The notes under the pieces: generated by a model
The model's input: the letters and a program-made list of their open reading frames with translations, nothing else
Database searches by the model: none
What the model was told of the DNA's origin: nothing
In this document: positions 3,186-19,220 of the stretch, piece after piece
How positions within the stretch are numbered: the stretch's first letter is position 1
How the letters are laid out: each line of letters starts with the position of its first letter
Source: a virus
IMG/VR virus record: IMGVR_UViG_3300030382_000963
Location: 1-20,189 of that record
Length of the DNA stretch: 20,189 nucleotides
Direction: 5' to 3' (one strand)
Position numbers and translations under genes: made by a program

Positions 3186-3435
3186 TTGATAATTCTATTT
3201 TTTCAACTTGTGGATGTCCACTATCATATAACATTTTTAATGTTGCCTGTGACATATCTTTTACAGACATTCGCATTTTTTTAAATACTAATCTTGCGTT
3301 CTCGCCAACACTTTCTAAAACTTGATACTTGTACTTTGCCATTTCTTTTTTTAATTTAATTGCTAATTCTTTTTGTATTCTGTGTAAATCTGCCCTCTTT
3401 TTTATTATGTTCTTGCTGCCACAATTACACCCCAT
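3166..3435 (-). CDS. Small basic protein with N-terminal CxC
   Basis: An 89-residue, Lys-rich, mainly helical protein beginning MGCNCGSKNIIKKR. Small proteins that begin with a Cys-x-Cys or Cys-Gly-x-Lys motif are often found next to portal genes in Bacteroidetes phages (recalled pattern), but I know of no assigned function. It overlaps the portal start by 20 bases and is the first gene after the terminator hairpin at 3459-3505, so it would be first in any portal transcript. A nucleic-acid-binding or small head protein role is conceivable. There is no membrane segment or signal peptide. Confidence 0.65.
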   Translation of the reverse strand: MGCNCGSKNIIKKRADLHRIQKELAIKLKKEMAKYKYQVLESVGENARLVFKKMRMSVKDMSQATLKMLYDSGHPQVEKIELSSGKKDK

Positions 3436-3458
3436 TTTGCAATGATACGACTTATTAA

Positions 3459-3505
3459 TTAAAAAAGGGTTGAGTTGTTATAAAAACTTCCCAACCCCTT
3501 TTTAA
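3459..3505 (-). terminator. Rho-independent terminator after tail tube gene
   Basis: On the minus strand AAAAAGGGGTTG (3503-3492) pairs with CAACCCTTTTTT (3472-3461), with one G-T pair and an extension of two A-T pairs, around a loop of about 19 bases. The distal arm ends in a run of six T. It lies in an 85-base gap between the tail tube gene and the small CxC gene, which is where a transcript of abundant capsid and tube mRNA would be limited. The gap holds nothing else that I can name. Confidence 0.75.
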
Positions 3506-3520
3506 AACTATAAATTATGC

Positions 3521-4129
3521 CTATGCCAATGTGTATCCTAATGCTGCTGCAATAGCAGGAGCAGAATCTATTGTAATAGCACCTGTGTACTCTCTTGGAT
3601 ATTCTGCCATAAATCCTTTCAGTTTCACAACTGTTTCGTTAGGGTCTTGTAATCCACTACCTGTGTTTTGTTCTCCACTAGAAAATTCTAAGAATGCGTC
3701 AGGGCTAAACACCTCATCATAACCAATACAGAAATGATATGTTGGTGGTGGTGCACCTACACCTGTGTCTGCATAAGTTTCCAAAATCGCAAATAAACCA
3801 CAAGTGTCTTTCAACTCCTCTAATCTTGCTTGAACTGCTGCTGTTATTTTTGGAACATTGAACCCTACTTCACATTCAACAACTGTTGAACCGTTTTCTC
3901 TTGAAGCGTTTGCGGTAAAATATGCTGTTTCTCTATCAAACTCAAACTTCCAAACATTAAACCCTGTTCCACCTGTGCCTGTTATCCCACCGATAGAATT
4001 ATAAGTATGTGGTGCGATTGGATTCGTTCCTGTTACATTCGCAACCTCTCCCAAGTATATTGTTTTGATACCACCTCTACGATTTCTATCATTACATAAT
4101 ATGGTATGACCTGCTGTTAATACTCCCAT
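3521..4129 (-). CDS. Likely major tail tube protein
   Basis: A 202-residue protein with the outline of siphovirus tail tube subunits, whose hexameric rings stack around the tape measure protein. Seen in the sequence: an N-terminal CNDRNRRGGIKTIYLGEV, a middle FEFDRETAYFTANASRENGS followed by VGFNVPKITAAVQARLEEL (the segment typical of tube proteins in which a strand leads to an amphipathic helix), then a Gly-Tyr-Asp turn, SSGEQNTGSGL, and a closing strand VKLKGFMAEYPREYTG resembling the final LxGxExxPA strand of the family. It sits directly after the capsid gene with a 28-base A/T gap and before a strong terminator, which suits a highly expressed product. An alternative is a capsid decoration protein. 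Confidence 0.6.
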   Translation of the reverse strand: MGVLTAGHTILCNDRNRRGGIKTIYLGEVANVTGTNPIAPHTYNSIGGITGTGGTGFNVWKFEFDRETAYFTANASRENGSTVVECEVGFNVPKITAAVQARLEELKDTCGLFAILETYADTGVGAPPPTYHFCIGYDEVFSPDAFLEFSSGEQNTGSGLQDPNETVVKLKGFMAEYPREYTGAITIDSAPAIAAALGYTLA

Positions 4130-4157
4130 TTTATTTTATTTTTTAAAAGTTATTATT

Positions 4158-5174
4158 TTATGAATTAGAATCAGAAACTACCGTTAACTCTGTGTTCTTA
4201 AAGTTAGTACCAATTACGTATTCAAATCTAAATCTATTCATTTTTTGGTCTTTATTGTACCACATATCAGCACCACTTACGCTATCGTAATCAGTTGCAA
4301 CAACAATATTGTTTTTAACTGTTAAAACAGAAATATGAGCATCAAAATCCTGTGCTCCATTATTACAAGACGCTGCTAATAAAGTTGTTCCTGCTCCACC
4401 ATCTGCTGCTATAACTGAATCCCATAATCCCAATTCTACAATCGGTATTCCTTGATAAGCTAATACAGGAACTCCACCAACCAATGCCGAATAACTACTG
4501 TCTGTTGCTGTTGCTGAAAGTGTTGCTCTGTAATTATCACACATTGAACGAGTAGCAAAGAAAACTAAATCTGCTCTGTTTTCTAATCCCTCACTTGGCA
4601 TAGCTACTAACTGTGCATCAAATTCTGCTTGTGCAACATTTGCTCCTAATGCACCGGAAGCAATCGCTAATTTTTGTCCTGCTGGTAAACCACTTAATTG
4701 AGCAAAAATTCCATTGTAAGGAGTGTAATCTGATGCTCCTACACCTACTGCGTTTGTGTTACCAAACCATAATTGTCTTTCTAAATCTCTTTTAACACCT
4801 CTTAACATAATATCTGCCACAATGCTTTGTAACTTTGTGCCGGAAATATCATCTTTGTTGTTTCCTGTTCTTAACAACTCTGCTTTGATAGAGTTCCAAA
4901 ATGCTCCACCTGCTTGTTCTACTTCTGCTTCCATACGTGCAACAGAGACTGTTCTTTGTGTCATTGTAACACCTGTTGCACCTGTAAAACCACTTGCTTC
5001 TGCCTTAGTAATTTTTGATAAGGTAGAAAATTTATCTAGTTGCTGACTAGATTTCACTCCTGTCATTATTTCAAAATAATCTAGTGCTGAATTGCCTACA
5101 AATAAAGGTTGCAGGAAATACTTTTGAGCATCTTCTTTTGAATACGTCAGTGCGTGAGTAATTAAATTTGCCAT
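4158..5174 (-). CDS. Major capsid protein (HK97-fold expected)
   Basis: A 338-residue protein encoded 32 bases after the maturation protease, the standard place for the major capsid protein. It is rich in Ala, Gly, Val and Ser, as capsid proteins usually are. It has an N-terminal helix region, a Gly/Thr-rich loop with GFTGATGVTMTQRTVS that could be the E-loop, a helix in NSIKAELLRTGN, and a C-terminal strand-rich region with VGGVPVLAYQGIPIVELGLW, a pattern typical of the A-domain of HK97-fold capsid proteins (VLxxGxPVV). There is no long N-terminal delta domain, so scaffolding may come from the protease C-terminus. The fold is inferred. Confidence 0.82.
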   Translation of the reverse strand: MANLITHALTYSKEDAQKYFLQPLFVGNSALDYFEIMTGVKSSQQLDKFSTLSKITKAEASGFTGATGVTMTQRTVSVARMEAEVEQAGGAFWNSIKAELLRTGNNKDDISGTKLQSIVADIMLRGVKRDLERQLWFGNTNAVGVGASDYTPYNGIFAQLSGLPAGQKLAIASGALGANVAQAEFDAQLVAMPSEGLENRADLVFFATRSMCDNYRATLSATATDSSYSALVGGVPVLAYQGIPIVELGLWDSVIAADGGAGTTLLAASCNNGAQDFDAHISVLTVKNNIVVATDYDSVSGADMWYNKDQKMNRFRFEYVIGTNFKNTELTVVSDSNS

Positions 5175-5206
5175 TTCTTTTTAATTTTTATTATTAATTA
5201 TTTTTA

Positions 5207-6484
5207 TTATTCCATTAATGATTTCATTGCTTCATTCCAACCGTTTGTTTCTTTGCTGTCCCCTTTTAAATTTAAGCTAGGGTCTTTGTCTGCTAAAACT
5301 TTATCACTTGTTGGTGTTGCGTTCAACTTATTAAGTTCCTCCACTTTTTCTTGTAGTTCTTTATTTAATATCTCTATCGTACTTTCGTGTGTTGCTACAA
5401 TAGAAAGCGTGTCAACTAACTCGTCTTGGATGTTTACTGCTTCCCCTATTGTTTGAGATAAATTGACCAATTCTCTTTTCACTGCTTTGTCGTCTAAAAT
5501 TCTAACTCCTTTTGGGGTGTCTTCTTTTATTCCGGAAATTCTATTTTTAAGATTTGTTAACATTCCTAAAATATCGTCCATAATATTTGGGTTTTGTTTT
5601 TTCTTAAAATCAACAACCCAACTCGGTGCGTTAGAAAATACTGTTTCGTTTACTGCTGCAACTTTAATTGGTTCACCAATGTTTGAAATAAAACCTTGCT
5701 CCATTGCTTCTGTTGCTGTAAACCACGTTTCAGCGTTCATCATTTCAATTATATCAGTATCTTTAATTCCTGTTCTTGTTGAATAGATACCAACCATTTG
5801 TTCTTTAATTTTATCTAACAACTCTGCTTTTTTTGTAAGGTCTTTTGCGTCACCCTGTATTCCAACACTTGGATTATGTATCATAATTAGTGAATTTTCA
5901 CTTGCACTAACTTCATCACCTGCTAACATAATAACAGAAGCCATACTTGCTGCTAATCCCTCTATTTCTACTGTTATATGTCCTTGATGTTTTTTTAGCG
6001 AATTATAAATTGCTATCCCCTCAAACACATCACCCCCTGCTGAATTAATTCTTAAATTAATTGGTGTGGTTTTTCCTGCTTTTGATAATTCATTAACAAC
6101 TTGTTTAGCAGTAAGTCCACCACTACCAATCATATCGTAAATAAAAATATCTTGTGTATTTTCAACCACTTCTTCTTCTTCTTCTTCTGGTTGGTTTTCG
6201 TCCCAACTTATTGAACACATTTCATTATCGTATTCATCAGTAACACATCTTTCCATAAAAGTTTCTTTGTCTTCTCCCTCTTTTGGAACTGCTATTTCGT
6301 TTGTTGGTTTGTCTTCTGCTTCTGCTTCTTCTACGTCTTCTTGTGGGTTTGCTTCGTTAAATTGTAAAGTACAGTACTCCTCTCTATCTTCCTCGTCAGA
6401 ATATTCTTTTGTAGTTCCCTCATCAGACATACAACGAGTTATAAAATCAACTTTTGTTTCGTCTTCGTTTGGTGTAATAGGCAT
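5207..6484 (-). CDS. ClpP-like head maturation protease with scaffold-like tail
   Basis: A 425-residue protein. Residues 110-295 are a ClpP/S49-like serine protease domain: INSAGGDVFEGIAIYNSL (146-163) gives the oxyanion strand, Ser180 in EGLAASMASVIMLAG is the nucleophile and His203 in LIMIHNPS the base. Such proteases cleave scaffold and capsid precursor during prohead maturation. The N-terminus (1-105) holds two copies of a short Cys-containing motif, DFITRCMSDE...YC (13-38) and TFMERCVTDE...MC (75-90), each followed by an acidic stretch. The C-terminal third (about 300-400) is predicted coiled coil with a Lys/Glu heptad pattern and could be the scaffold. It is followed by the capsid gene. 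An internal ATG at 5581-5579 (Met302) may give a separate scaffold product. Confidence 0.85.
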   Translation of the reverse strand: MPITPNEDETKVDFITRCMSDEGTTKEYSDEEDREEYCTLQFNEANPQEDVEEAEAEDKPTNEIAVPKEGEDKETFMERCVTDEYDNEMCSISWDENQPEEEEEEVVENTQDIFIYDMIGSGGLTAKQVVNELSKAGKTTPINLRINSAGGDVFEGIAIYNSLKKHQGHITVEIEGLAASMASVIMLAGDEVSASENSLIMIHNPSVGIQGDAKDLTKKAELLDKIKEQMVGIYSTRTGIKDTDIIEMMNAETWFTATEAMEQGFISNIGEPIKVAAVNETVFSNAPSWVVDFKKKQNPNIMDDILGMLTNLKNRISGIKEDTPKGVRILDDKAVKRELVNLSQTIGEAVNIQDELVDTLSIVATHESTIEILNKELQEKVEELNKLNATPTSDKVLADKDPSLNLKGDSKETNGWNEAMKSLME

Positions 6485-6503
6485 AATTTTTATTTTTAAT
6501 TTA

Positions 6504-6511
6504 CAAAAATA
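6504..6511 (-). promoter_or_regulatory. Possible Bacteroidetes-type -7 promoter element
   Basis: The minus strand reads TATTTTTG, an exact match to the Bacteroidetes -7 consensus TAnnTTTG, 19 bases before the ATG of the protease gene in a 57-base gap. No clear TTG or TTTG element is seen about 20 bases upstream, and in AT-rich DNA the match could arise by chance. If real, it would give the protease, capsid and tube genes their own transcript, ending at the hairpin at 3459-3505. Confidence 0.3.
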
Positions 6512-6541
6512 GAAAAACCGTAACTTTATTCTGCGCAGTTT

Positions 6542-6862
6542 TTAACGACAAACATTATTCTTAATCTCAAACTTTTTTTGGTATTCATAAATTATTGTCT
6601 GTATTTGCCTTTCGCTTAAATTGTATTCAATACTCATATCCATAAACGTATATGTCATATGACCTTTGTTTTTTATTAATTGCTTATAAAAATCATTTAC
6701 AATTAAAAAGTTTCTTATTGTGATTGGTTTTATTAAACCGTGTTGAGATAAATGTAAAATCAAATCTTTAACCGTTGCGTCTATTCCAAACCTTAAATTT
6801 ACTTCTTCACTAATAACGTCACAAAAACGTTGTATATCTTTCAAACTATTTTTTTTTCCCAT
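6542..6862 (-). CDS. Helix-turn-helix protein
   Basis: A 106-residue protein with a probable helix-turn-helix at residues 72-94 (TFMDMSIEYNLSERQIQTII), of the kind seen in Mor-like and resolvase-like DNA-binding proteins. The rest is helical, with FLIVNDFYKQLIKN just before the motif. It overlaps the upstream gene by 22 bases and stands directly before the protease gene, so it may act on transcription of the head genes; this is inference from position. A run of nine A at the overlap (6857-6849) is a possible slippery site. It could instead be a small virion or packaging-related protein. Confidence 0.6.
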   Translation of the reverse strand: MGKKNSLKDIQRFCDVISEEVNLRFGIDATVKDLILHLSQHGLIKPITIRNFLIVNDFYKQLIKNKGHMTYTFMDMSIEYNLSERQIQTIIYEYQKKFEIKNNVCR

Positions 6863-7107
6863 AAGTCATAAATTATTGTACTCCATAATTTAATTACTGT
6901 TGTTTGACACTCACCACAATCTAAATCGTCTTTTGTAAATGTTTCCGTCACCCCTGCAAAATGAGTATTGAAATAATTAAATAATTTTTTAATGTATTGT
7001 GAATGATGTTTATTGTGTTTAGAAAAGTAATTTGCGTTTTCTTCAAATACCTTTTGAATTTCACCTCTTTCTTTTTCTTTTACTTTTTCTGCAAGTTTTT
7101 CTACCAT
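6841..7107 (-). CDS. Small CGxC-containing protein
   Basis: An open frame runs from 7161, but I place the start at the internal ATG 7107-7105 (88 residues). The upstream start would overlap the cysteine-rich gene by 61 bases, whereas the internal one gives a 7-base overlap. The first part is a charged helix (KLAEKVKEKERGEIQKVF) and the second contains FNYFNTHFAGVTETF then DLDCGECQTTVIKLW. The shape of an aromatic helix followed by a CGxC and a final helix is one I associate with small phage proteins found next to zinc-ribbon genes; function is unknown. Only two Cys are present, so metal binding would need a partner or a dimer. Confidence 0.55.
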   Translation of the reverse strand: MVEKLAEKVKEKERGEIQKVFEENANYFSKHNKHHSQYIKKLFNYFNTHFAGVTETFTKDDLDCGECQTTVIKLWSTIIYDLWEKKIV

Positions 7108-7298
7108 TTGTCTATTGGACAACTTGTGTTCTTTAACGCTACTTTTTTTTGAATGGAACAACTACATTTGGAACAACTGTCCTCATTAAATAACGTTAAC
7201 CACTTGTCTCTTTTGTGCTCACATTTGTTACAAAATTCTAGTCGTGTTTTTCTTAATTTTTTGTCAGTAAATAGTGCTTTAAACAATTCAAACCCCAT
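7101..7298 (-). CDS. Zinc-ribbon-like small protein
   Basis: A 65-residue protein with Cys at 23, 26, 42, 45, 47 and 60, in the order CNKC, CSKCSC and SCPIDKW at the end. This matches a zinc-ribbon-like family common in phages (ICxxC..RCxxCGCxM..K..L..A.CP..KW), whose function is not known. The N-terminus is basic (KKLRKTRLE). It is the first gene after the 123-base intergenic region and is followed, with overlaps, by the CGxC and helix-turn-helix genes, so the three are likely expressed together. Confidence 0.65.
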   Translation of the reverse strand: MGFELFKALFTDKKLRKTRLEFCNKCEHKRDKWLTLFNEDSCSKCSCSIQKKVALKNTSCPIDKW

Positions 7299-7421
7299 TT
7301 TTTTTCTTTTCTTTTTTATATCTAGTAAATCCTCTAACTTTCTTTTTTAATACTAATACACTTTACACCTGTGAAAGTCCGTTAAATCGCTTTAAAACCA
7401 CGTTAAAACGAGTTTTAAGAA
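7299..7421 (-). promoter_or_regulatory. Intergenic region with phased repeats and a dyad
   Basis: This gap separates the tape measure gene from the zinc-ribbon gene. On the minus strand it holds GTTTTAA at 7409-7403 and 7398-7392 and the variant GATTTAA at 7388-7382, spaced 11 and 10 bases apart, with an inverted copy at 7412-7418 forming TTAAAACTCGTTTTAA. Further downstream is an imperfect dyad, CTTTCAC and GTGTAAAG, at 7361-7377. Helical spacing suggests an operator or activator site. No exact TAnnTTTG element is present, and no convincing gene. Confidence 0.4.
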
Positions 7422-10400
7422 TTAGAACGTTGCTCTACTTTCTAACACCGAAATTGTGTTTTGTGTGCCTGTAATATCTGACTCTGTTACTGTCACTCTT
7501 TGGTGTGAAAGTGCTTGTGCAATTCCTGTGATATCTTCTTCTGTTAACAAACTTCTTGTCTGTGCTTTTGCTAACGCTCCCATCACCAAACCACCGTCTG
7601 CAAAACGTTTTCCTCCACCTGCCACATTTATATCACTTAACTGATTTCTAAACATTGCTGTACTCCGTTTATTTATAACTGCCTCACCACCCTCTAATTC
7701 TGCAACTGCTCCCCCAACTTTAAATCTTACCCCACCTTGTGCGTGTGATTTCCCATTTACCATTCCACCATCAGCAAGTATTCCACCCCTCTCTCCTTTA
7801 AATTCTACTGCGTCAATAGCTTGAATCTGTTTACTTGTTCTGCTTAACTGTGCAATCATTAACCCTGATTTTATAATTGTGTCAATAATAGGGTTTCCTG
7901 TAATCTGTCCACTCCAAATTCTCATAATAGCCATTGCTCCTGCCATTTTTGCTTCTGCCTTTTGTAAGTCTTTATTTTTATTAAACTCTGTCTTTTTTAA
8001 TTCTGTTGTTTGGTCGTCATATTTTTTAGCAATATTTTTTTTAGCTGTTGCTTTTGCTTCTTCCGACATTTTTGAATTTTTAGTACTTTCCTCGTACCTT
8101 TGTAATTCTGCTTCTTTTTCTTTATTTAGGTTATGTATTTTATTATCCGATTCCACTTTGTCAAGACTTGCGTTACCGGACATCAGCCCACTGATTGCAC
8201 TTAACGCACTATCTAGCCCTGCAAACGCTGCTTTCACTCCCTCTCCATACATCATTTTTTCTAATGGAGATTTGCCATCATCATCTTCCGTTTGCTTTTG
8301 TAGGGCTGCTAATTCAGCTTTTAGATTTTTAATGTTTTGAAGTTGTGTTGCTCCTAAGGTTTTTTCTGATTCTGCTTGTAATAGTATCAGACTTATTTCT
8401 CTTTGTAATTGGGCAACTCTTTCTTTATTGTATTCATCGCTTACCTCTTGTTTCCCTTTTAATATTGCTAATATAGTTTTGCTTTTATTTATCTCTATTT
8501 GTAATGATTGTATGTTTTGCTTTGTAACATCTGCACTTTGTCCCTTTGCCTTTTTTTCTAAATCTCGTAACCGTGTAAGCTCTTTTGTTATTGTTATGAA
8601 ATTAGCACTATTGATAGTTTCTGTTTGTAATATTTTAGTTAACTCTTTTCTTTTTGTAGATATTTTTTCAAGGGTAGTATCTTCTAATTTTAAAGCATTT
8701 GCTAATCCCATAACTCCACCACCTTTGCTTGTGCTACCATCACCAATTACGTTATCTATAATATCTCCATATTTCGCTGCCCTTTCGTTAGCTTTCTTTT
8801 GTACTTCAATCTGTTTATTTTGAACATCTATTATTGCACTTTCAACACCTTTCTTTTTATTTTTGATGTCCGTTAATACTCCCTCTGATACTGCTAAGAT
8901 TGTGTTTTGAGCATTTTCTTTCTCTTTGTTTTTTACATTACCTTGGATTAAATTGCCCTCCGCATCCACCATCTGAATTGCATTCTCCTTATTTTTATTC
9001 AGTATCTCTTGTTCTTTATTATTATTTGCTATCTGATTATTGATTTCCTTTTGCATACCTAACTCATCCTCTTTCAGATTGTTTAGTTTATCTTCTAATG
9101 TTAATTCTTGCTCAATCATTGCTAGAATTTCTTTCTCAGCCATTTGTAAAACTAATCGTGCTTTAATTTTATCAATATGTAATGAAACGGCAGCAGCCAT
9201 ATCTTTTTGTAACTGAGAATAATCTGATGAAAACTGAACAGTTGTATTGTAGGTTTTATTAAATTCATCTAACGACTTTCTTCTATCGTCCTCTGACCTA
9301 CTTATTGCTAATATCCTTGCTGATAATATTCTTAAATCAGCTATTTCTTGTTTATGATTTTTGTTTAATTCTTCTTGTTCATCAGCAATTTTCTTTTTTG
9401 TTTCTATCTCTAATTTTTCTATATCAGTAAGCTCTTTCTTTTTTCCGGACAAAGTAGAAATGAGCATTATTAATGTTGTTACTGCTGAAATAGCTAACGC
9501 ATAAGGATTCATCTTTGCAACTTGATTAAAAATTCGTTGTTTAATAGTTAAATCAACCACGGAAGCTGCTAATAATTTATTCCTCGCCCAAGCCAACATA
9601 GTAACAACATTATATGCTGCCCAAGAAACCACGGCAATTTTAAGCAACCTTGCAATTCCGGATAAGTGAGTAATAAAATAACTCAACATATTTAATAGTT
9701 TTTCTATTATCGGTTTTGTCTGTTCCCCTAAAAGAATTTTCTGTTTTGTCCACTCTCCGTTTAATCTATTTTGTGCTTGTGTTAATGTGTCTTGTTGCAT
9801 TGTTACTGCATTTGCTAACGAACTATTCTCACCATAATCTAAATTAACAGATTGTAATATATTGTCATAATCTTCCAACTGTGCTGTTCCCATTGCACTC
9901 ACACCTGTTAACGCTCTTATGTTTGGAATTAACTCGGTTAACACATCTGCGTTCTCTGCTCCTGCTTCTGTAATTTTTGTAAGAATATTCATTAACCCTT
10001 GACTTCTTACTGCTGTTGTTCCATAACTAATTCCCAACTTATCAAAAGTTGCTTTCGCTTTCTCACTTGGTTTTTCTATTGCAGTAATTGTACTTTTTAG
10101 TGCTGTTGCTGCTAAGTCAGTTTTAATTCCCTGTTTTGTTAATTCTGCCATTGCTGCTAACAATTCTTGGTAACTCATTCCTGCTCTTTTTGCGTGTGGT
10201 GCAACATTACCAATTGAAACAGATAATTCTTCTACTGTTGTTTTACCAAACTTTTGTGCTGTAAAGAAAGCGTTTGCAATTTTGTTTGCTTCACTTGTTT
10301 CTAATTGGAACGCATTCATAATGGTTGTCATACCGTCAACTGCTGTGCTTAAATCAGTAACACCACCTAACGCCAAGTTACTTGCAACATTCATAAATTC

Positions 10401-11126
10401 TACACTTTCTGCTGCCGGTACACCTGCCGAAACACTATCAAATAACGCTTTGTTTACGTCCTCAATAGCAAACCCATATTCAGCAATAATATTTAACATT
10501 CCACTTTGCATTTCATCGTGGAATTGTGTAATGTCATCACTCGTCATTAATGTTAAAACGTTTGTAAAACTTTTTTCAAACTCACCAAAATCAGCAATCA
10601 ACATTGTAACAACTCTGCTCATAGCAGCAAACGCCATAACTGCTGCACCAATCGCCATTCCTACTGCTGCCATTTTTTCTTTCATTCCACCTAAGGCAGA
10701 ACCATAATTCCCTACATTTCGTTGATTATGTCCTAACGTTTTATCAAACTCTTTTAACTTATCGTTGTTCTTTTTGTACTCCTCTTTCATCTTTTTAATC
10801 TCCTCAGATGAACCTTTCATACCAACCTTTGATGCTTTTAAAGATGTTATAAGTGCTTTGTTTCTTTGAACCAAACTATTATAAGAACCATCTAATTTTT
10901 TAGTGGCTGTATTAACTGCTAAAACTGTTTTCTGTTCTTGGTTTCTTTCGCTTCTTAACCCTTTTAACTTAACACGTTTTTCTGCAATAGTTTTTGCATT
11001 TTTCTTATCTGTCTTGTCTAGTTTTTTTAACGCTGCTTCGGTTTTTTGAATTTCCTTTTCTAAATTAACTAGCTTTTCTGTTCCTAGAATTTTTAAATCT
11101 AATATCGTTTGTATTTTCCCTGCCAT
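7422..11126 (-). CDS. Tail tape measure protein (TP901 type)
   Basis: At 1234 residues this is the longest gene. It starts with a Lys/Glu-rich coiled coil (about 1-130), followed by a hydrophobic segment AVGMAIGAAVMAFAAM, then the conserved TP901-type core with EFEKSFTNVLTLM, NVASNLALGGVTDL, AFFTAQKFGKTTVEELS and AGMSYQELLAAMAELTKQGI. Two further hydrophobic segments lie in the middle (around LLKIAVVSWAAYNVVTMLAW and ALAISAVTTLIMLIS), then long coiled coils, and a Gly-rich C-terminus with GGILADGGMVNGKSHAQGGV and a later FADGGLV, as is usual for the family. By the rule of about 0.15 nm per residue the tail would be near 185 nm. It sets tail length and may pass into the host envelope. Confidence 0.93.
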   Translation of the reverse strand: MAGKIQTILDLKILGTEKLVNLEKEIQKTEAALKKLDKTDKKNAKTIAEKRVKLKGLRSERNQEQKTVLAVNTATKKLDGSYNSLVQRNKALITSLKASKVGMKGSSEEIKKMKEEYKKNNDKLKEFDKTLGHNQRNVGNYGSALGGMKEKMAAVGMAIGAAVMAFAAMSRVVTMLIADFGEFEKSFTNVLTLMTSDDITQFHDEMQSGMLNIIAEYGFAIEDVNKALFDSVSAGVPAAESVEFMNVASNLALGGVTDLSTAVDGMTTIMNAFQLETSEANKIANAFFTAQKFGKTTVEELSVSIGNVAPHAKRAGMSYQELLAAMAELTKQGIKTDLAATALKSTITAIEKPSEKAKATFDKLGISYGTTAVRSQGLMNILTKITEAGAENADVLTELIPNIRALTGVSAMGTAQLEDYDNILQSVNLDYGENSSLANAVTMQQDTLTQAQNRLNGEWTKQKILLGEQTKPIIEKLLNMLSYFITHLSGIARLLKIAVVSWAAYNVVTMLAWARNKLLAASVVDLTIKQRIFNQVAKMNPYALAISAVTTLIMLISTLSGKKKELTDIEKLEIETKKKIADEQEELNKNHKQEIADLRILSARILAISRSEDDRRKSLDEFNKTYNTTVQFSSDYSQLQKDMAAAVSLHIDKIKARLVLQMAEKEILAMIEQELTLEDKLNNLKEDELGMQKEINNQIANNNKEQEILNKNKENAIQMVDAEGNLIQGNVKNKEKENAQNTILAVSEGVLTDIKNKKKGVESAIIDVQNKQIEVQKKANERAAKYGDIIDNVIGDGSTSKGGGVMGLANALKLEDTTLEKISTKRKELTKILQTETINSANFITITKELTRLRDLEKKAKGQSADVTKQNIQSLQIEINKSKTILAILKGKQEVSDEYNKERVAQLQREISLILLQAESEKTLGATQLQNIKNLKAELAALQKQTEDDDGKSPLEKMMYGEGVKAAFAGLDSALSAISGLMSGNASLDKVESDNKIHNLNKEKEAELQRYEESTKNSKMSEEAKATAKKNIAKKYDDQTTELKKTEFNKNKDLQKAEAKMAGAMAIMRIWSGQITGNPIIDTIIKSGLMIAQLSRTSKQIQAIDAVEFKGERGGILADGGMVNGKSHAQGGVRFKVGGAVAELEGGEAVINKRSTAMFRNQLSDINVAGGGKRFADGGLVMGALAKAQTRSLLTEEDITGIAQALSHQRVTVTESDITGTQNTISVLESRATF

Positions 11127-11127
11127 T

Positions 11128-14100
11128 TTATCTTACTTTATTAATGTAGTCCGTATAATCATCTACGTTATTCGCTCCCTCGTTAACTCTCCTAACAGTT
11201 GTATATAAGTCCATATAAGCACCTGTATCGTCTGTTGTTACTAAATTAGTACTTTCACCACCTAACTCAATAGAACCGTCTGATTTAACCGTTAAAACGT
11301 TTCTTCTATTGTTTTCATCCCAACCACCACCAATAATTAAAAGAGCATCATTATCCTCTTGGTTGTATCTTCCTAACACAACTTGATTTTGTAACCTTGA
11401 AATTAAATTATTTCCTAAAACAATGTTACCGTTATTTCTTGGTGCTATATTGTTTGCTCTAATTACCATACTGCTACCCTGTGTTCTTCTTTCTACTGAA
11501 AGTTGGTTAGGATTTCTTAATGTTGCAACAGGGTACGGACTATCAATAGTAGCAGTAACATTACTGCTTCCTGCTGAAAAACTTGGTGGGCTTATTAATC
11601 TTTCCCCCTGTTGTCCTCTTGTATAATTTACGTTGCTATACGTTGCCAATGTTGGTTGACTTCTGTCTTTTATTTGATATTGTAATAACTCCACTTTTGT
11701 TAGTCCATCATCTTGTGGTTTGTAATCTATTATTTTATGTATTTTCCAATAAGAACTGTTTGCTCCACCGTCCTCTGTAATATAAACCATTCGTCTTAAA
11801 TCTAACTGTGCTATGTCAGTTGGTGTCAAATGAAAGTAAGCAATTTTCATACGTGGTAAAGCAATTAAATCTTGGAATAAAGTATCAAAATATGTTGTAA
11901 ACAATCCCTCGTAAAATAACCCACCAACAGTTATATCGTGGTATGCTAAATTTGCGTGTTTTTGTCCACTTTTTACAACACCGTCTGTCATATAAGATAC
12001 TGCTCTTGGATATGTGCTTGTCGTACTATTAGCCCAAGAACCCCAAACGTTTTGTGTTCCTGTGCTTTGCATTCCCTCATAACTTAGTATTCTAATTCCA
12101 TAACCTGCTGCTCTTTCTGGTTTGTCGTAATTACCAATATCGTCTAACCATTCTTGTACAATTAATGGAATCCACGGTGGATTAGCATCAATCAATTCTA
12201 CCAACTGATTATCTTTTATCATAATAGTTGGAACAAATAAAGTTGTTCCATACTCTTTTGTTTGGTTTAAATATTGTGCTCCTAAGTCTACAAACTGTGA
12301 ATGATATGGATATTCAAGCGAAGCGTTTAACGTTTCTTGGTAACCGTCTTTGCTTGGTGGTTGGTATCTGTAAAGTGCGTTTCTTCCAATTAAATCTGTA
12401 ATAAATTGTGTTGTGTGTGGTGTAAATAAATCCATTTTTTTTCTCCAATCAACTGCCTCTGCTTTTGATGTATAGAAATTTTCATACGGTTCTACATAAA
12501 CTTTTTTTGTCATTTCGTCTGTAAACCAATATAAATTAAACAACCCTGTTAAACCACCAATAAAATCTTTTTGTGTTATATCACAAGGCAAAAAATCACC
12601 CCACGCTACTGAATCACCATATAAAATACCGTTTCCTGTTGTAACTTTAAACTTTGTTTCTCTTGCTTTTGTTCCTGTCATATCTGTTGTTTCCCACGCT
12701 GCATCCCACTTTGTAAAATCTCTATCTGCCACAAACGCATAACTATAAAAATCACTATTGTTTTGTCTTATATTAAATGCTTGTACTACAATGTGTGCTC
12801 CGGCAGGAATTGTTCCTGTCCACGTTAAATCAACTTCTTTATAATGAAACGTTCTGTGGGTTTGACTACTTGGAGTGCTTACTGTGCTTGTTGCTAAAAC
12901 AGTTTCTGTTCCTGCGTTTGTTGCTGCTGTTACTCCTGTCCAAGTGTTGTCAGTATAGTTCCACCCACTAGCACTTTCAATCATTACTAAATTTGTTTTT
13001 ACTTTTGCTCTACCGTCACTTACTGCTGCTTCCCATTTATATAAAAGATATGACATTTCAACCGTTATTGTATAATCTGCTGTTGCAGGACATACCCACC
13101 TGTGCCACGTCATAGGATAAGTACAATAACAGTGAGTAACTATTCTTTCCTTTTCCCCTGTTGATATTGCATTATTTTGACTAAAACCATTTATTCCATA
13201 TTCATCTGCAGCACACCATTGAGAAGTGTATAAATCTTGGGTATTATAAACGTCAACAATTTCTTCATTAAACATTCCGTATCTGTGTCCCATATATTCA
13301 TCAGCTATTGGTGGTGAATAACTCCAAGACACTTGATTTAAGGGCTTACAATGATTGACAGTTGCTCGTGGTTTATTTGGGTCATAACAGGGGTCAGGAT
13401 AAGTTTCTTCGCAATCAACCCACTTCCAATTAGGAGACATATATCCGCCACAATTATGTAATGATGTTGCTTGGCTATTCCCACGTCCGTTGTCGTGGTA
13501 AAAATTTGCTTCTGCAACAACAACTGTTGTGCTTGGTTGTCCACCCCCCAATGTTTGTATGTTACCGTGATTAAAACGTGTTGGGTCGGTTGGCATAATA
13601 AGTTTCTTAAAAAACTTATCTTCCATAAATTTACTCACCACCTCATAACCTGCGTCTTTAAAAAAAGCGTACACTAATTTCTTAATAAAGAATGATGGAG
13701 TTTGTTCCATTAAGTGCATTTTTTTCCACGTTGGAATAGAATGGTTGTATCCGTATTCTCCCCAACAAATATGTGGAAGACAAACAGTATAGGTTGGAAT
13801 TGTGGTTGGGTGATTTACGTCATCAACGGTTACGTTGTTGTTATACCAAGCCCACATTCCATTGTCCCAATTATGCACACTATGATAATCAGGGTCTAGT
13901 AATTCGCACATCATTTTTCCATCCATAATAGCTGTCCAATTATTACTATCTCCTAAAATTGTTATTGTGTAACCAACTTCTTTCTGTCCTTTTTGATAAC
14001 CCTTTATTGTGAACGTTCCTGTTAACACAACAAAACCGTTTATTCGTACTCTACATTTTATGCTATTATCAACAAACTGTGTAATATCCTTTAAATTGTC

Positions 14101-14331
14101 TTTTAAAGCGTGTTTAAGCAACTTATTATTATGTTTGGTAGCAGGTATATCAAACGTCTTTGTGTACGACCCTTTGCTGTCGTTTAACGTTTCTATGTTT
14201 TTAACTCCGTATTGTATAGATAATGGAAAATTTTCACTTTCATAAATATCTAAAACTCCTGTATCATTTGCAGAATCAATCCCACTACCACCACCATACA
14301 GTATTTCTAATTTAACTTCTTTGTAAGCCAT
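11128..14331 (-). CDS. Tail-tip / baseplate protein
   Basis: A 1067-residue protein with an N-terminal region like Bacteroidetes phage minor structural proteins: SKGSYTKTFDIPATKHNN (52-69), then RVRINGFVVLTGTFTIKG and YTITILGDSNNW, and later CDITQKDFIGGLTGLFNLYW followed by YVEPYENFY. These suit a hub or baseplate protein next to the tape measure. Residues 184-414 are unusually rich in Cys (184, 189, 294, 307, 315, 328, 373, 401, 403, 414) and Trp. The C-terminus has RLQNQVVLGRYNQEDNDALL and NVLTVKSDGSIELGG, the form of trimeric adhesin-like head repeats, so the tip may contact the host. It overlaps the upstream stop as TAATG and ends one base before the tape measure start. Confidence 0.75.
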   Translation of the reverse strand: MAYKEVKLEILYGGGSGIDSANDTGVLDIYESENFPLSIQYGVKNIETLNDSKGSYTKTFDIPATKHNNKLLKHALKDNLKDITQFVDNSIKCRVRINGFVVLTGTFTIKGYQKGQKEVGYTITILGDSNNWTAIMDGKMMCELLDPDYHSVHNWDNGMWAWYNNNVTVDDVNHPTTIPTYTVCLPHICWGEYGYNHSIPTWKKMHLMEQTPSFFIKKLVYAFFKDAGYEVVSKFMEDKFFKKLIMPTDPTRFNHGNIQTLGGGQPSTTVVVAEANFYHDNGRGNSQATSLHNCGGYMSPNWKWVDCEETYPDPCYDPNKPRATVNHCKPLNQVSWSYSPPIADEYMGHRYGMFNEEIVDVYNTQDLYTSQWCAADEYGINGFSQNNAISTGEKERIVTHCYCTYPMTWHRWVCPATADYTITVEMSYLLYKWEAAVSDGRAKVKTNLVMIESASGWNYTDNTWTGVTAATNAGTETVLATSTVSTPSSQTHRTFHYKEVDLTWTGTIPAGAHIVVQAFNIRQNNSDFYSYAFVADRDFTKWDAAWETTDMTGTKARETKFKVTTGNGILYGDSVAWGDFLPCDITQKDFIGGLTGLFNLYWFTDEMTKKVYVEPYENFYTSKAEAVDWRKKMDLFTPHTTQFITDLIGRNALYRYQPPSKDGYQETLNASLEYPYHSQFVDLGAQYLNQTKEYGTTLFVPTIMIKDNQLVELIDANPPWIPLIVQEWLDDIGNYDKPERAAGYGIRILSYEGMQSTGTQNVWGSWANSTTSTYPRAVSYMTDGVVKSGQKHANLAYHDITVGGLFYEGLFTTYFDTLFQDLIALPRMKIAYFHLTPTDIAQLDLRRMVYITEDGGANSSYWKIHKIIDYKPQDDGLTKVELLQYQIKDRSQPTLATYSNVNYTRGQQGERLISPPSFSAGSSNVTATIDSPYPVATLRNPNQLSVERRTQGSSMVIRANNIAPRNNGNIVLGNNLISRLQNQVVLGRYNQEDNDALLIIGGGWDENNRRNVLTVKSDGSIELGGESTNLVTTDDTGAYMDLYTTVRRVNEGANNVDDYTDYINKVR

Positions 14332-15674
14332 TAAATTCTATTTGTTGTTTTTGGGTTTGCGTATTCTAGTTCTAATTCTATTTTGCTAAGTGAACTCCCT
14401 CGTTTTTTTTCTTGGAAACTTGGCGACCTAACAATAACAGGAGTTAATTTCCAAAAGAAAGCAGAAAGATTACTGCCTTTATCTTGGACAAACACTTCTG
14501 TTGAATTTATGATATTGCTTAACCATTCTAGCGTTTCTTTGGTTTCCCAACCGGAATAAATTTTCATTCTTTTATTGCTATCTACATTTACTTTGTGTGT
14601 TCCACTACTTTGTTGATTAAACGTGTTGTTGTTGTACCAAGAATAACCACTCGTTGTTGTGTCTTCGTTACGGTGTCGCCTGTGTCCTAATGGAGATTGA
14701 AAACGTTTGTACTTGGAAAGAATTTTTATTGAGTGTGTTCCTTTAAACGTATAGCAATCAACACCGTTTCTATTATTTCTCCACCACAACCTAACGTGTT
14801 CCTCACTACACCCACACGTTGTAAAAACAGAAGTATAAGTTTCACTCACATCAGCCCAAGGATATGTTCTAACCATTCTATATTCAAATTTTGCCCAACC
14901 ATTTGTTGCAGACCAAAATGAATTTAATATACCTAAGTCGTCAAGTAAACTTTTTATCTGTGGTGCACCTATTCCAAACTGATTAACTCCATAAAACTCT
15001 GTTGGGTAACTAACAGGAACGTCAGTGTGTACCGTTCCGTCTTCTCTATAAATATTTAGATATAATTGTAACTCTCTAATATCTGCTCCAAACGAAATAA
15101 TTTTATCGTCTTCTATACATTCCTGCGTTACTAATGGTTGGTCTGTCATAAACTTACAGGTATCTCTTCCATTCCAACTTCCTAATATGTGCCACGTTTT
15201 ATAAAATTCGTGCTGTGGTAAAAGCCACGTATCCTCGTGGTCAACCCCACCGTCTATTGCATAAAATTCAGAAAATCTTTGCCAATTATTTATGTTTTGG
15301 TTATACGATAATTCCCCTTGTGAATTTATAGTTTCCTCTGTCATAACTAACCTACATTTTATTCTATGATTTTTACCATACGACCAATTATTTCCTGTTA
15401 TCCCTGCTGAATTTAACACGTACATATCTTGTGCTATTTCCCACCTTACAAAATCTGTACATAATTGGCTAACGTCAATCAACCAAAAATTCATATCCCA
15501 TTCTATCGGTTGTTTAAGGTGGTTTGTTACTATCCCCCACGTTAACGTTATTGGGTCTTGTATTTCTAAAACGTAAACTATATTTATTGTGTTATTATTA
15601 TTGCTTTGATACATAAACGGAAACGGTCTACTTGTATCATACCACGCTGTATAATTATTAATTGCATTTATCAT
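14331..15674 (-). CDS. Minor tail structural protein
   Basis: A 447-residue protein rich in Trp, Tyr and Asn, encoded between the gp10-like gene and the tail-tip gene. Toward the C-terminus it has RLWWRNNRNGVDCYTFKG and later ETKETLEWLSNIINSTEVF and FFWKLTPVIV. A similar order (LxWLNxxGGxDxFxF, then a GWETKE..L..L..S.EV segment) is familiar from tail or baseplate proteins of Bacteroidetes phages, which I recall only as a pattern. The stop shares a base with the next ATG (TAATG). A distal-tail or neck role is inferred from position. No enzyme motif is seen. Confidence 0.6.
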   Translation of the reverse strand: MINAINNYTAWYDTSRPFPFMYQSNNNNTINIVYVLEIQDPITLTWGIVTNHLKQPIEWDMNFWLIDVSQLCTDFVRWEIAQDMYVLNSAGITGNNWSYGKNHRIKCRLVMTEETINSQGELSYNQNINNWQRFSEFYAIDGGVDHEDTWLLPQHEFYKTWHILGSWNGRDTCKFMTDQPLVTQECIEDDKIISFGADIRELQLYLNIYREDGTVHTDVPVSYPTEFYGVNQFGIGAPQIKSLLDDLGILNSFWSATNGWAKFEYRMVRTYPWADVSETYTSVFTTCGCSEEHVRLWWRNNRNGVDCYTFKGTHSIKILSKYKRFQSPLGHRRHRNEDTTTSGYSWYNNNTFNQQSSGTHKVNVDSNKRMKIYSGWETKETLEWLSNIINSTEVFVQDKGSNLSAFFWKLTPVIVRSPSFQEKKRGSSLSKIELELEYANPKTTNRI

Positions 15675-15675
15675 C

Positions 15676-16161
15676 TTACCTACTTAATTTATTTATTATT
15701 TGGCTAAATTCTTTTCCCATTTGAAAGTCAACAATGGTTTGTATTTTTGCCCTGCTTTTGTGTATTGCCTTGTCTACAAAATTCATACGTTTGAAATCTC
15801 TTTTTCCTTTCCTTTGTGGCATTCCTTTTTTAGCGTGTACTGTTGCTATCGCAAACGCTATTCCACGTATCATTTCATCCCCACTTCCAATTCCTTTTCT
15901 TATTAACCATTTCATTAAACCCTCTATTCTTGGTCTTGCATAAGGGTTTTTTATATGTCCTGCTGAAACACCGTAATTTATAAACCTCCAATAATGGTTT
16001 CCCTGTATTCTAATTGTGGGTTGAAACCCTGTAAATTCTTTTTGTCTTAAACTTGAAATTAAACTTCCACTTCTTTTTGTTTGTCCTTGTCTTAACAATT
16101 CTTTTCCAAGTGCAATTCTATATTGTAACCCAATTCTTTTCAATGACATTAAACTAATCAT
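15676..16161 (-). CDS. HK97 gp10-like tail completion protein
   Basis: A 161-residue, strongly basic protein. The segment NHYWRFINYGVSAGHIKN (55-72), followed by RPRIEGLMKWLIRKGI (76-91) and a helix IAFAIATVHAKKGMPQR, has the outline of the HK97 gp10-like family (YWxFxxxGxxxG...P...I..Wi..KGI...laf.i...I...G). These proteins act at the head-tail joint or in tail completion. The ATG overlaps the upstream TGA as ATGA, so translation is probably coupled to the tail-terminator-like gene. Arg/Lys clusters (QRKGKRDFKR) may contact DNA or an acidic partner. Confidence 0.65.
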   Translation of the reverse strand: MISLMSLKRIGLQYRIALGKELLRQGQTKRSGSLISSLRQKEFTGFQPTIRIQGNHYWRFINYGVSAGHIKNPYARPRIEGLMKWLIRKGIGSGDEMIRGIAFAIATVHAKKGMPQRKGKRDFKRMNFVDKAIHKSRAKIQTIVDFQMGKEFSQIINKLSR

Positions 16162-16625
16162 TGCTCATACGTTAAACAATGAGTAAATTTATTAATTTGA
16201 ACTGTACATATAATACCAACTAATGCGTCATTGTATTCCTCATTGATACGTTCTACCGTCCAAGACCCTGTTAATATATACCTATGCTCAAACCCAAAAG
16301 AAAGTGCCTGCATAGTTTCTTTAAATTGGTTTAATAGCTTGTCGTATGTTTCTTCTAACATTTGTAATTGTGACCCTACTCCTGCTGCTAAATCTGTTCT
16401 AACATCTACAATTTGGTAACAATGAAATACACACGTCATTGTTTCATCATTTTTATAAGGACTAATAAAAGCACTTGTTGGTGGTAATAATAATATAAGT
16501 GGATAATTAGTATTGTGACTTGCGTTTACCATTCCTAAATTGCCAAACATATATGTATTAAACCAACCAACTCTCGCTGTGTCAACATCTGCACTTAAAT
16601 TTCTTAAATCTCTTAGTAAAGCCAT
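16158..16625 (-). CDS. Tail-terminator-like protein
   Basis: A 155-residue protein with a strand YPLILLLPPTSAF (41-53), a strand CVFHCYQIVDV, a helix QMLEETYDKLLNQFKETMQAL (quoted 20 at most: QLQMLEETYDKLLNQF) and a final strand LVGIICTVQI with a closing THCLTY. The order strand, strand, helix, strand and the Cys-containing end resemble proteins that end the tail tube, located next to gp10-like genes in many siphoviruses. The family is inferred from outline and neighbours. The start is preceded by AAAAATAAAAACAA without a Shine-Dalgarno sequence. Confidence 0.5.
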   Translation of the reverse strand: MALLRDLRNLSADVDTARVGWFNTYMFGNLGMVNASHNTNYPLILLLPPTSAFISPYKNDETMTCVFHCYQIVDVRTDLAAGVGSQLQMLEETYDKLLNQFKETMQALSFGFEHRYILTGSWTVERINEEYNDALVGIICTVQINKFTHCLTYEQ

Positions 16626-16637
16626 TTGTTTTTATTT

Positions 16638-17521
16638 TTAATAATTCATTCCACCACCTTTGTTTTTTGCTGCTCTTTCTGCTGCTTTTTGATACTGCAC
16701 TTCGTGTTCAATATTTGCACTTTCCCAACTCATATATGTCAACACTTCTCTTAATCCTGTTTCCTCTACGTTCTCAATACTGTTAAGACCGTTAGACTTA
16801 TTAAACACCCCTTTTTCTGCTACTCTGTAGATTGAGTTGAGCCACCCAAATCCTGCAATGATGTGTCTAACCTTTGCTGCTGTTCTGTCTTTTTCTGTTT
16901 GTCCGAATATATTTGGGTAAGTTTCTGTAAGGAACTTATCCGTTTCTGCAAAAAAAAAGTTAATTTCATTACTGTGTCCATTGTAATATCTTTAAACAGT
17001 TCTGCCCTTTCTTCTATATTGTAACTTTCTTTTTTTTCGTTTTTCTTTCTACAACAATAAGCAATTTGATTTGCTAAAATATCAAACCGTTTATCGTTAT
17101 CGTTTGCTAACACTTGCTCATATTGTTTTAGTGAAGCGTATTCCCCAAACGACATTCCCTCAAAGTTATATTTTGGAAAGTAATATGTTTCTCCTTTGTG
17201 TTTAAATTTGTGTTCACTCCAATCACCATCAAAATCATTTTGGTCTAGCATATTATTAAAGACATTAACTATTTTTTCTGCCTGTGTGTATTCAATTCTA
17301 TCAACATCCTTAGGACTTAACCCTAACAGTTTTGCAACTAACTCTTTTGTTAAATTTATTTCGTCATTTACATACGCATCAATTTCCTCGTCTTCTGTTG
17401 GTGGTTTGTCTAAATTATATTTACATAAAATTTTCCATATTGCACAAAACTCATTTAACGTTAACTCGCTATATGATTGTGGAATTTTAACTTGTTTTTT
17501 ATCTACTTCTATAACTATCAT
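16638..17521 (-). CDS. Frameshift product of tail assembly chaperone (gpGT-like)
   Basis: The frame one base back from the chaperone gene is open from beyond the T run at 16958-16950 to a stop at 16640-16638 and fills an otherwise gene-free 180-base gap. It reads as protein: AETDKFLTETYPNIF, GFGWLNSIYRVAEKG, LREVLTYMSWE, then a charged helix. It has no good start of its own before the gap. A -1 slip after Phe190 or Leu191 would give a fusion of about 294 residues, against 233 for the unshifted form, as in the lambda G/GT pair that assembles tails around the tape measure. The coordinates span the shifted product. A one-base sequencing error in the T run would give the same picture. Confidence 0.65.
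16820..17521 (-). CDS. Tail assembly chaperone, unshifted form (gpG-like)
   Basis: A 233-residue soluble protein following the large terminase after a 51-base gap. The N-terminus has IEVDKKQVKIPQSYSELTLN, then an acidic helical middle with LAKLLGLSPKDVDRIEY-type segments (KLLGLSPKDVD), YYFPKYNFEGMSFGEYASL and FFLQKR. After the slippery run the unshifted frame continues for 43 residues, rich in Gln, Ser and Lys, to a TAG. The shape, an N-terminal domain common to two products and a site for -1 shift near its end, is that of tail assembly chaperones, but the gene is about 6 kb from the tape measure gene rather than next to it. Role is inferred from the frameshift and from its place in the tail block. 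Confidence 0.6.
   Translation of the reverse strand: MIVIEVDKKQVKIPQSYSELTLNEFCAIWKILCKYNLDKPPTEDEEIDAYVNDEINLTKELVAKLLGLSPKDVDRIEYTQAEKIVNVFNNMLDQNDFDGDWSEHKFKHKGETYYFPKYNFEGMSFGEYASLKQYEQVLANDNDKRFDILANQIAYCCRKKNEKKESYNIEERAELFKDITMDTVMKLTFFLQKRISSLQKLTQIYSDKQKKTEQQQRLDTSLQDLGGSTQSTE
16915..16960 (-). other. Candidate -1 ribosomal frameshift site
   Basis: On the minus strand ACT TTT TTT TTG contains nine T (16958-16950). Two heptamers are in phase for a -1 slip: T TTT TTT (16958-16952) and T TTT TTG (16955-16949). After a spacer of seven bases, CAGAAAC, the sequence GGATAAGTT (16941-16933) can pair with AACTTACCC (16923-16915), with one A-C mismatch and a nine-base loop. Slippery run, spacing and hairpin together match the usual layout of such sites. 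Confidence 0.6.
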
Positions 17522-17572
17522 AATTTTGCAAATTTAATTTATTAGTTTGTTTTATTCACGCACTTTTTACTG

Positions 17573-18880
17573 CTAACCAAAATATGTTATCTTGGTTTTA
17601 TTTAATTCAAAATAACACCTCATCATTAAAGCGTCAGCAATATCAGGTGAACGACCTAAATGTTCTTTCATTTTATCTTTACCAACAATATTTAATTTAT
17701 TGTCTTTGTCCACGTCTTTCATTTGTATTATTTCCAACTCTTGTATAATGTCTTGTTTATACTGTGTTTCTTTAATAAAAATTTCTCCTTTGTTTACCTT
17801 ATCAGCGAATTTATAATAACATTGCGTTTTAAGGTTTTGATAGTTCTCCTTACCCAATGCTTTAGAATTATTAATAAAGCCCTTAGAACCTCTTAAAATG
17901 TCTTTTAAACCACCACCCACACCGTCTTCGTCTAACACAATATTACTTCTTTGTACTTTGTGTTTTTGTGCTGTGTCTAATACGTGTGTTTGTAGTTTGT
18001 CAATTCCAATCTTATTGTACTTAATTATCTTAACCACAACCCAACCACTCCACACACAAATAACAGAACTGTCTTTTCCAAAACGTGCCACATCAACGCT
18101 TATATATTTTTCACCCTCGTTAATATAAGTGTTGGTGAAAAGATTAATAATATTATCATATTTAAACAACCTACCCTCTGTGTCGTCATACTCCCAATTT
18201 CCATACAACAATCTTTCCTTTGTTATTGTGTCCATCTTACTCAACGTTTCAATGTAGTGTTTAGAAATATTTGGGTTGTCTGTAACCAACGATTGTAAGA
18301 ACCGTTTATCTTTACCTAATATGTTTTGTTTGTTTGGAATATACCACTCGCTGTACAACCAATTCTTTGCAGGGTTACAGGTCAACAATAGTTTTGGAAT
18401 AAGGTTATTTTCATCTAACCTAAATCTTATTCTACTTAAAACAATGTTTTTTGCTTTCTGTGTTATTTGGTTTGCTTCATCAATAAACGCTCCGGTTAAT
18501 TCAAGTGAACCAAGAGAATCAAAGTTTGGGTCGCTAGGAAAAAGGAACATATCTTTCAATAAAATTTCTGAACCATTGTAGAATTTAATTATATTACTCT
18601 GTGCGTTAAACATATAGTGTTGTCCACTTTTTATTTCCCACTTTCCACACACTTCAAAGAATGTGTTTAGTGTTGTTTTTTTTAAAGCGTCTAATCTGCT
18701 TCTTCCTAAAAGATAACGTGTGGTTGGGTACTGTAAACAACTAATGATTAACCACGCACAACCACAAAAACTTTTACCACCACCTGCTCCACCACCAAAC
18801 AGTAATTCGTTAGTTGTATTGTCGGTTAAATATGTTAATGCTTTTTTTTGTGTGTCCGTAAACTTAGGTGTTATCTCCAC
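17573..18880 (-). CDS. terL: Terminase large subunit
   Basis: A 435-residue packaging motor, with ATPase and nuclease domains as usual. Walker A is GGGAGGGKS (29-37), Walker B is AFIDEA (131-136) with Glu135 catalytic, and LLLTCNP (164-170) is the coupling motif. The RNase H-like nuclease domain has SVDVARFGKD (261-270, Asp263), IVLDEDGVGGG (314-324) and SPDIADALMM (411-420), which supply the acidic metal ligands. It cuts and pumps genome DNA into the prohead through the portal. Its start overlaps the small subunit by 17 bases. All catalytic motifs are present, so it appears intact. Confidence 0.95.
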   Translation of the reverse strand: MEITPKFTDTQKKALTYLTDNTTNELLFGGGAGGGKSFCGCAWLIISCLQYPTTRYLLGRSRLDALKKTTLNTFFEVCGKWEIKSGQHYMFNAQSNIIKFYNGSEILLKDMFLFPSDPNFDSLGSLELTGAFIDEANQITQKAKNIVLSRIRFRLDENNLIPKLLLTCNPAKNWLYSEWYIPNKQNILGKDKRFLQSLVTDNPNISKHYIETLSKMDTITKERLLYGNWEYDDTEGRLFKYDNIINLFTNTYINEGEKYISVDVARFGKDSSVICVWSGWVVVKIIKYNKIGIDKLQTHVLDTAQKHKVQRSNIVLDEDGVGGGLKDILRGSKGFINNSKALGKENYQNLKTQCYYKFADKVNKGEIFIKETQYKQDIIQELEIIQMKDVDKDNKLNIVGKDKMKEHLGRSPDIADALMMRCYFELNKTKITYFG

Positions 18881-19220
18881 CGTCTAAATTTATGTTAATT
18901 TTTATTGGCTCGTTACCACTGCTAATATCTAACTCTTGTTTTTCAACGTACCCTCTGTGCTTTCCACGTGTCTTTAAAAAGAATATTAACTCCGGTGTTG
19001 AACCCTTTTTAATTTTCTTTATCAATTCGTTTTCCCCTAAGTCTAAATACTTCTCACGTATGTCCTCACACACTTCTTTTAACTCGCTGTAACGGTCTAA
19101 GTAATTGTAAATAGTCTTACGTGTACAACCTAACGTTTCTGCTGCAATAGAAAGAAACCCACCTGCACTCTCTAATGCCTGTTTGACTTGTTCTATTGTG
19201 TATTTATTTTTGTTTGCCAT
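18864..19220 (-). CDS. terS: Terminase small subunit
   Basis: A 118-residue DNA-binding protein with a helix-turn-helix at residues 22-45 (IAAETLGCTRKTIYNYLDRY), a central helix and the closing segment ELIFFLKTRGKHRGYVEKQE (77-96) that is typical of small terminase subunits (A/E...F.Lk.kg..RGY.E). It recognises the packaging site and loads the large subunit. It overlaps the large-subunit start by 17 bases, and its own ATG lies inside a tiny frame upstream, so the block is read as one unit. Confidence 0.85.
   Translation of the reverse strand: MANKNKYTIEQVKQALESAGGFLSIAAETLGCTRKTIYNYLDRYSELKEVCEDIREKYLDLGENELIKKIKKGSTPELIFFLKTRGKHRGYVEKQELDISSGNEPIKININLDGGDNT

Follow-up and report, generated by a model that had tools for sequence, protein, structure and literature searches.

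A conserved run of nine T and a predicted -1 frameshift in a putative tail assembly chaperone gene of a widespread phage group

The virus record IMGVR_UViG_3300030382_000963 of IMG/VR was analysed over positions 1 to 20,189, and this whole stretch of 20,189 nucleotides is here called the window. On its minus strand, an open reading frame (ORF) of 233 residues contains a run of nine T (T9), and a second frame follows the run in -1 relation. The locus raises the question whether both frames are expressed as one protein from one start and, if so, which machine slips on the run. A first-pass annotation had proposed an unrecorded -1 frameshift joining a chaperone gene to a hidden second frame, in the G/GT layout of tail assembly chaperones. 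Frameshifting in tail chaperone genes ranks among the textbook examples of conserved ribosomal recoding. The comparative analysis reported here indicates that a programmed -1 frameshift very probably gives a short and a long (G/GT-like) product from one start, and that this predicted nine-T switch, previously unrecorded, recurs in hundreds of related phages.

The T run and the second frame

On the minus strand of the window, T9 occupies positions 16958-16950 with the 0-frame codons ACT TTT TTT TTG and holds two heptamers, T_TTT_TTT (16958-16952) and T_TTT_TTG (16955-16949). It is the sole T9 among the coding-strand T runs of at least seven in the window, the others being two T7. The first 190 residues of the 233-residue product are common with the predicted fusion, and its final 43 residues form the unshifted tail. 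From 16952 the -1 frame translates FAETDKFLTETYPNIFG...GGGMNY*, which is 104 residues with the stop codon at 16640-16638; the 0 and -1 frames overlap by 133 bases. An independent start of the second frame was rejected, since no ORF of at least 60 residues beginning with ATG, GTG or TTG was found in the -1 frame behind T9 in the window. Part of the expression would thus end in the 0 frame and give the G-like product of 233 residues, and the other part would cross T9 with a net shift of -1, read 104 residues further and give a GT-like fusion of 294 residues. The coordinates and lengths in the first-pass annotation were correct. The features are collected in Table 1.

Two families of relatives are distinguished, family 1 being that of the window and family 2 that of the Nonlabens phage P12024S. 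A search with the -1 segment gave 91 relatives, of which 80 were kept, and a search with the first domain only, which is blind to the second frame, gave 197 viral stretches. T9 was present at the same place in three near relatives that come from other samples (93-97% identity over 233 residues), in the same register in all distant relatives found via the -1 segment alone (80 of the 91 relatives), and in each of the 77 stretches read from the first-domain search that lie outside the window's near relatives. The 557 kb of family-1 loci contain 77 T9 runs, about one per locus, at the chaperone-gene site. A count over all fetched loci based on hidden Markov models (HMMs) comprised 306 loci, 229 of them distinct, with a homologous -1 segment. 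Exactly nine T were found in 228 of the 229 distinct loci; the remaining one (L186) carries T10 near position 2903 (ATC TTT TTT TTT TAT), the only in-frame length variant found. An unbroken protein with a T run of another length, which the first-pass annotation had named as the outcome that would speak against a frameshift, was sought in the 229 distinct loci, and an unbroken version of the gene was found in none of them. Both queries suggested there, the 104-residue -1 segment and the 233-residue protein, retrieved loci that keep T9, and the proposed joining of the gene to a hidden second frame was borne out, its layout being kept in relatives.

Family 2 was reached through the predicted fold of the first domain, which led to P12024S, where the gene P12024S_38 was then seen directly after the terminase gene. 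Its T9 lies at 23578-23586 of JQ823122, and the -1 frame behind it continues through P12024S_39; at this locus (L173, JQ823122 23136-23830) P12024S_38 and P12024S_39 are annotated as two hypothetical genes, of which the latter is the end of the -1 extension of the former. Searches from the P12024S gene gave 63 loci, and a search with the family-2 -1 segment gave at least 581 relatives plus a Winogradskyella and a Bacteroidetes metagenome-assembled genome (MAG). The cultured members of family 2 are the Nonlabens phages P12024S and P12024L. In PHROGs the two halves of the family-2 protein form separate families without known function, phrog_32199 and phrog_38404. Family 1 and family 2 are homologous in both halves, as hhalign aligned their first domains with E 5.6e-11 and their -1 segments with E 1.3e-10.

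Substitution patterns show purifying selection on the -1 segment. In the overlap, comparison of the window with the locus L010 revealed 10 synonymous codon changes and 1 non-synonymous codon change in the -1 frame; therefore, the second frame is what is preserved there. When family-1 sequences are compared pairwise, 55% of the changes in the overlap and 69% of those past it fall on third positions of the -1 frame. Between the window and distant relatives, conservation is higher in the -1 segment (about 40%) than in the first domain (about 25%). In family 1, TTG makes up 100% of the Leu codons at the T9 site and 11% elsewhere in the gene.

A second homopolymeric site was seen elsewhere in the window: a run of nine A on the coding strand at 6849-6857, where two ORFs of 106 residues (7161-6841 and 6862-6542) overlap in -1 relation. 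The second of these has its own ATG, and the arrangement may be an ordinary overlap or a second slippage site.

RNA polymerase and ribosome as candidate slipping machines

In the proposed mechanism, the host RNA polymerase would slip on T9 and add one U to part of the mRNAs, and ten U would bring the second frame into phase; ribosomal slippage on T_TTT_TTT possibly contributes too. Efficient slippage of RNA polymerase in vivo occurs on runs of nine A or T and is used in Thermus dnaX (review PMC5009743), and for A runs in E. coli frameshift efficiencies of 10% (A7), 40% (A9) and 63% (A11) were reported (PMC3711429). Transcriptional slippage goes with a conserved A/T run of about nine or more, and T9 is such a run. 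Polymerase slippage is favoured here over ribosomal slippage because a conserved stimulator is missing, the number of T is exactly nine and the codon phase is tolerated, and a slight preference is accordingly given to RNA polymerase as the putative main slipping machine.

The codon phase of the run differs between the families. In site counts, the 121 family-1 loci always read xxT TTT TTT TTG, with AGT, GCT, GGT or ACT as xxT, and the 108 family-2 loci read GTT, CTT or ATT, then TTT TTT, then TGG, TAT, TAC, TCG or TGC, with V, L or I before and W, Y, S or C after; both sites have nine T. In addition, L298 of family 2 reads AGT TTT TTT TTG, again with nine T. That exactly nine T are kept across a change of phase suggests selection on the run length and not on the codon phase, and exactly nine T in two codon phases fit RNA polymerase slippage at least as well as a ribosomal heptamer. 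The nine-T evidence is suggestive and not stronger, because coding constraint explains part of it and independent phase changes are few.

Classical programmed -1 ribosomal frameshifting, with a tandem tRNA-Phe slip from UUU UUU on U_UUU_UUU, a U-run counterpart of lambda G/GT, would give the same products from a uniform mRNA and is a serious, if lesser, possibility. Several points weigh for it and against the preference for RNA polymerase. A slippery heptamer X_XXY_YYZ in the 0 frame is available as T_TTT_TTT in every locus, and all three of its wobble positions are invariably T, despite TTC and other third bases elsewhere in the gene. An in-frame heptamer is contained in T9 whatever the phase, and sequence therefore always leaves room for ribosomal slippage. 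Published G/GT frameshifts of phage tail chaperones are treated as translational (PMC5009743, PMC3711429), and GGAG lies a few bases upstream of the run in most of family 1. Moreover, coding in one frame or in both partly dictates the T beyond the heptamer, and the case for a phase change with nine T kept comes from a small number of independent events, namely the family split and L298. The evidence for the frameshift itself is all comparative.

On the other side, an in-frame T8 or T7 that keeps the heptamer was not found, and the first T of the family-2 run (T1) hardly varies even though it is not part of the heptamer. When the viral collection was scanned, within the family-2 TTTAGG context only, no in-frame T8 with the heptamer T_TTT_TTT came up. 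The scan returned 16 T8 matches, and an HMM screen of all 16 recognised only L335. A set of 14 of the 16 matches with one common motif was set aside: in five that were read, long frames were present only on the other strand or none matched.

Stimulators around the run speak against the ribosome as well, in that no conserved stem was found and the window, like almost every family-2 locus, lacks a Shine-Dalgarno (SD)-like site. The hairpin of the first-pass annotation can form in the window and is weak: alone it has -4.9 kcal/mol (z -1.7; 14 of 200 shuffles fold as well), and in a 61-nt stretch -6.0 kcal/mol (z -1.5). As a stimulator it did not hold up, since on average only 3.2 of its 9 pairs are kept in the family-1 loci and 3.5 of 9 in the family-2 loci, and downstream folding compared with shuffles has a mean z of about 0 (21 family-1 and 9 family-2 representatives). 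The window hairpin is thus probably incidental, because it is present in the window and not conserved. SD-like motifs (GGAG, AGGA or GAGG) within 20 nt upstream of the run occur in 102 of 121 family-1 loci and 9 of 108 family-2 loci, and none was present upstream of T9 in the window. An SD-like stimulator was rejected: the site, which codes for Trp-Glu in most of family 1, does not occur in the lineage of the window and is all but absent from family 2. Neither a stem nor an SD-like stimulator conserved across both families was found.

Protein identity and gene neighbourhood

The protein is probably a tail assembly chaperone, as suggested by its gene layout and a predicted fold, and would chaperone the tape measure protein. 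The conserved overlapping -1 frame without its own start fits the G/GT layout named in the first-pass annotation. A model of the first domain (AlphaFold2, AF2; alignment of 24 sequences; predicted local distance difference test, pLDDT, 79) had as its best PDB match among the chains compared the HK97 tail assembly chaperone 2ob9 (Z 6.1, root-mean-square deviation 3.1, 78 residues), and one BFVD match (E 7.5e-4) is annotated as tail assembly chaperone. The model of the C-terminal segment was poor (pLDDT 52).

This identity has several points against it. The 2ob9 match is weak, a Z below 8 being flagged by the tool as a possible common arrangement, and Foldseek gave E 8.4 for the first domain against the chaperone. 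The window protein has no sequence-family match in Pfam, NCBIfam, PHROGs or PDB sequences, and for family 2 convincing matches were obtained only to PHROGs of unknown function and to no named chaperone family. The gene adjoins the terminase gene instead of lying between a major tail protein gene and the tape measure gene, from which it is separated by four ORFs (155, 161, 447 and 1067 residues). It is conceivable, and judged unlikely, that the frameshift is real and the protein is another morphogenesis or regulatory protein in two forms. Such a protein would agree with the missing family matches, with the position behind the terminase gene and with PF10145 not being found in family-2 contigs, where a tape measure gene gave a weak match only in P12024S and none in the other six contigs. 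It agrees poorly with the HK97 chaperone as best PDB match, with the BFVD annotation and with the overlapping two-frame layout followed by a tape measure gene in family 1, where this gene was present in 13 of 13 contigs examined.

A BFVD match in Flavobacterium phage 6H (L174, KC959568) was not interpretable, having a T6 run and several frame changes. Positions 10352-10927 of L174 and the gap behind them contain a structurally similar gene with T6, followed by a segment in a different frame; apparently two frame changes are needed, which would mean a sequence error or a different recoding.

Table 1. Positions in the window of the reading frames, the T run and neighbouring features
Feature	Coordinates	Strand	Evidence or remark
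0-frame ORF, 233 residues, short (G-like) product	16820..17521	-	N-terminal homologs in 197 viral stretches
T9, putative slippage run	16950..16958	-	T9 exactly in 228 of 229 distinct relatives
-1 frame segment, 104 residues and stop, C-terminal part of predicted GT-like fusion	16638..16952	-	homologs with 33-100% identity; purifying selection
Weak hairpin of the first-pass annotation (16941-16933 paired with 16923-16915)	16915..16941	-	folding; not conserved
Next gene downstream, 155 residues, no family match	16158..16625	-	starts 12 bases past the -1 frame stop
Terminase large subunit, immediately upstream	17573..18880	-	same neighbour in Nonlabens phage P12024S
Tape measure protein, downstream of the chaperone gene	7422..11126	-	PF10145 E 3.8e-32; PHROG tape-measure families

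Over 1908-19220 the order of transcription in the window is terminase, chaperone, tail genes, tape measure, ClpP-type head protease, capsid-like and portal, so that the head genes come after the tail genes. The nearest terminases are those of Cellulophaga, Flavobacterium, Bacteroides and Polaribacter phages. These terminases and the MAG matches make a host from Bacteroidota probable. The phages 11b, phi10:1 and P12002L were considered and rejected for comparison of the locus, as they have the terminase alone in common and their annotated gene order differs.

Length variants, known systems and implications

Homopolymeric tracts within genes can act as contingency tracts, as discussed in PMC3711429, and the run could in principle change length in replication and switch the fusion on and off. 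Such phase variation is highly improbable and was rejected, as almost no length variation exists: 228 loci with T9, one with an in-frame T10 and one frame-broken T8. The latter, L335 (282-306, minus strand), is a family-2 copy near a contig end and represents an error or a dead copy. The one-base error in the T run that the first-pass annotation had named as the main alternative, i.e. one unbroken frame from which sequencing or assembly dropped one T, has in its favour that homopolymers are error-prone and that L335 is one T short, and is practically excluded because 228 of 229 distinct loci, which come from many samples and include phage isolates, have the same T9.

The locus resembles lambda G/GT and HK97 gp13/gp14 in the overlapping second frame without its own start and in the tape measure gene downstream, and its first-domain fold weakly resembles the HK97 tail assembly chaperone (2ob9). 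In contrast to lambda, it has a nine-T run instead of GGGAAAG and does not adjoin the tape measure gene; it also differs from both lambda and HK97 in the stronger conservation of its second segment relative to its first and in that no sequence likeness to a named chaperone family was detected. With slippage in Thermus thermophilus dnaX and Shigella mxiE and spa33 it shares an A/T run (nine in dnaX) without a conserved stem, and a one-base addition to the mRNA would open the -1 frame here; those are bacterial genes, whereas slippage here is proposed from comparison of genomes. P12024S and P12024L are alike in having a homologous gene right after the terminase gene, with T9 and a -1 extension (_38/_39), and differ in the codon phase and in being annotated with two hypothetical genes. 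Neither a tail chaperone frameshift on a T run nor polymerase slippage in phage tail genes was described in the open-access literature searched.

These comparisons point to a widespread, uncharacterised phage group with a two-product layout on a bare nine-T run and no conserved stimulator. The phrog_32199 and phrog_38404 families would be halves of one protein, and a frameshift on T9 would explain why gene callers lose the second half. The cultured phages P12024S and P12024L make the frameshift directly testable. It is an evenly balanced proposition that a large group of Bacteroidota phages sets the ratio of short to long chaperone by polymerase slippage and not by a lambda-like ribosomal frameshift, with the run length of nine, and not the codon phase, as the conserved signal. 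If RNA polymerase is indeed the slipping machine, the product ratio would be set in the mRNA, and one phage problem would have found two solutions.
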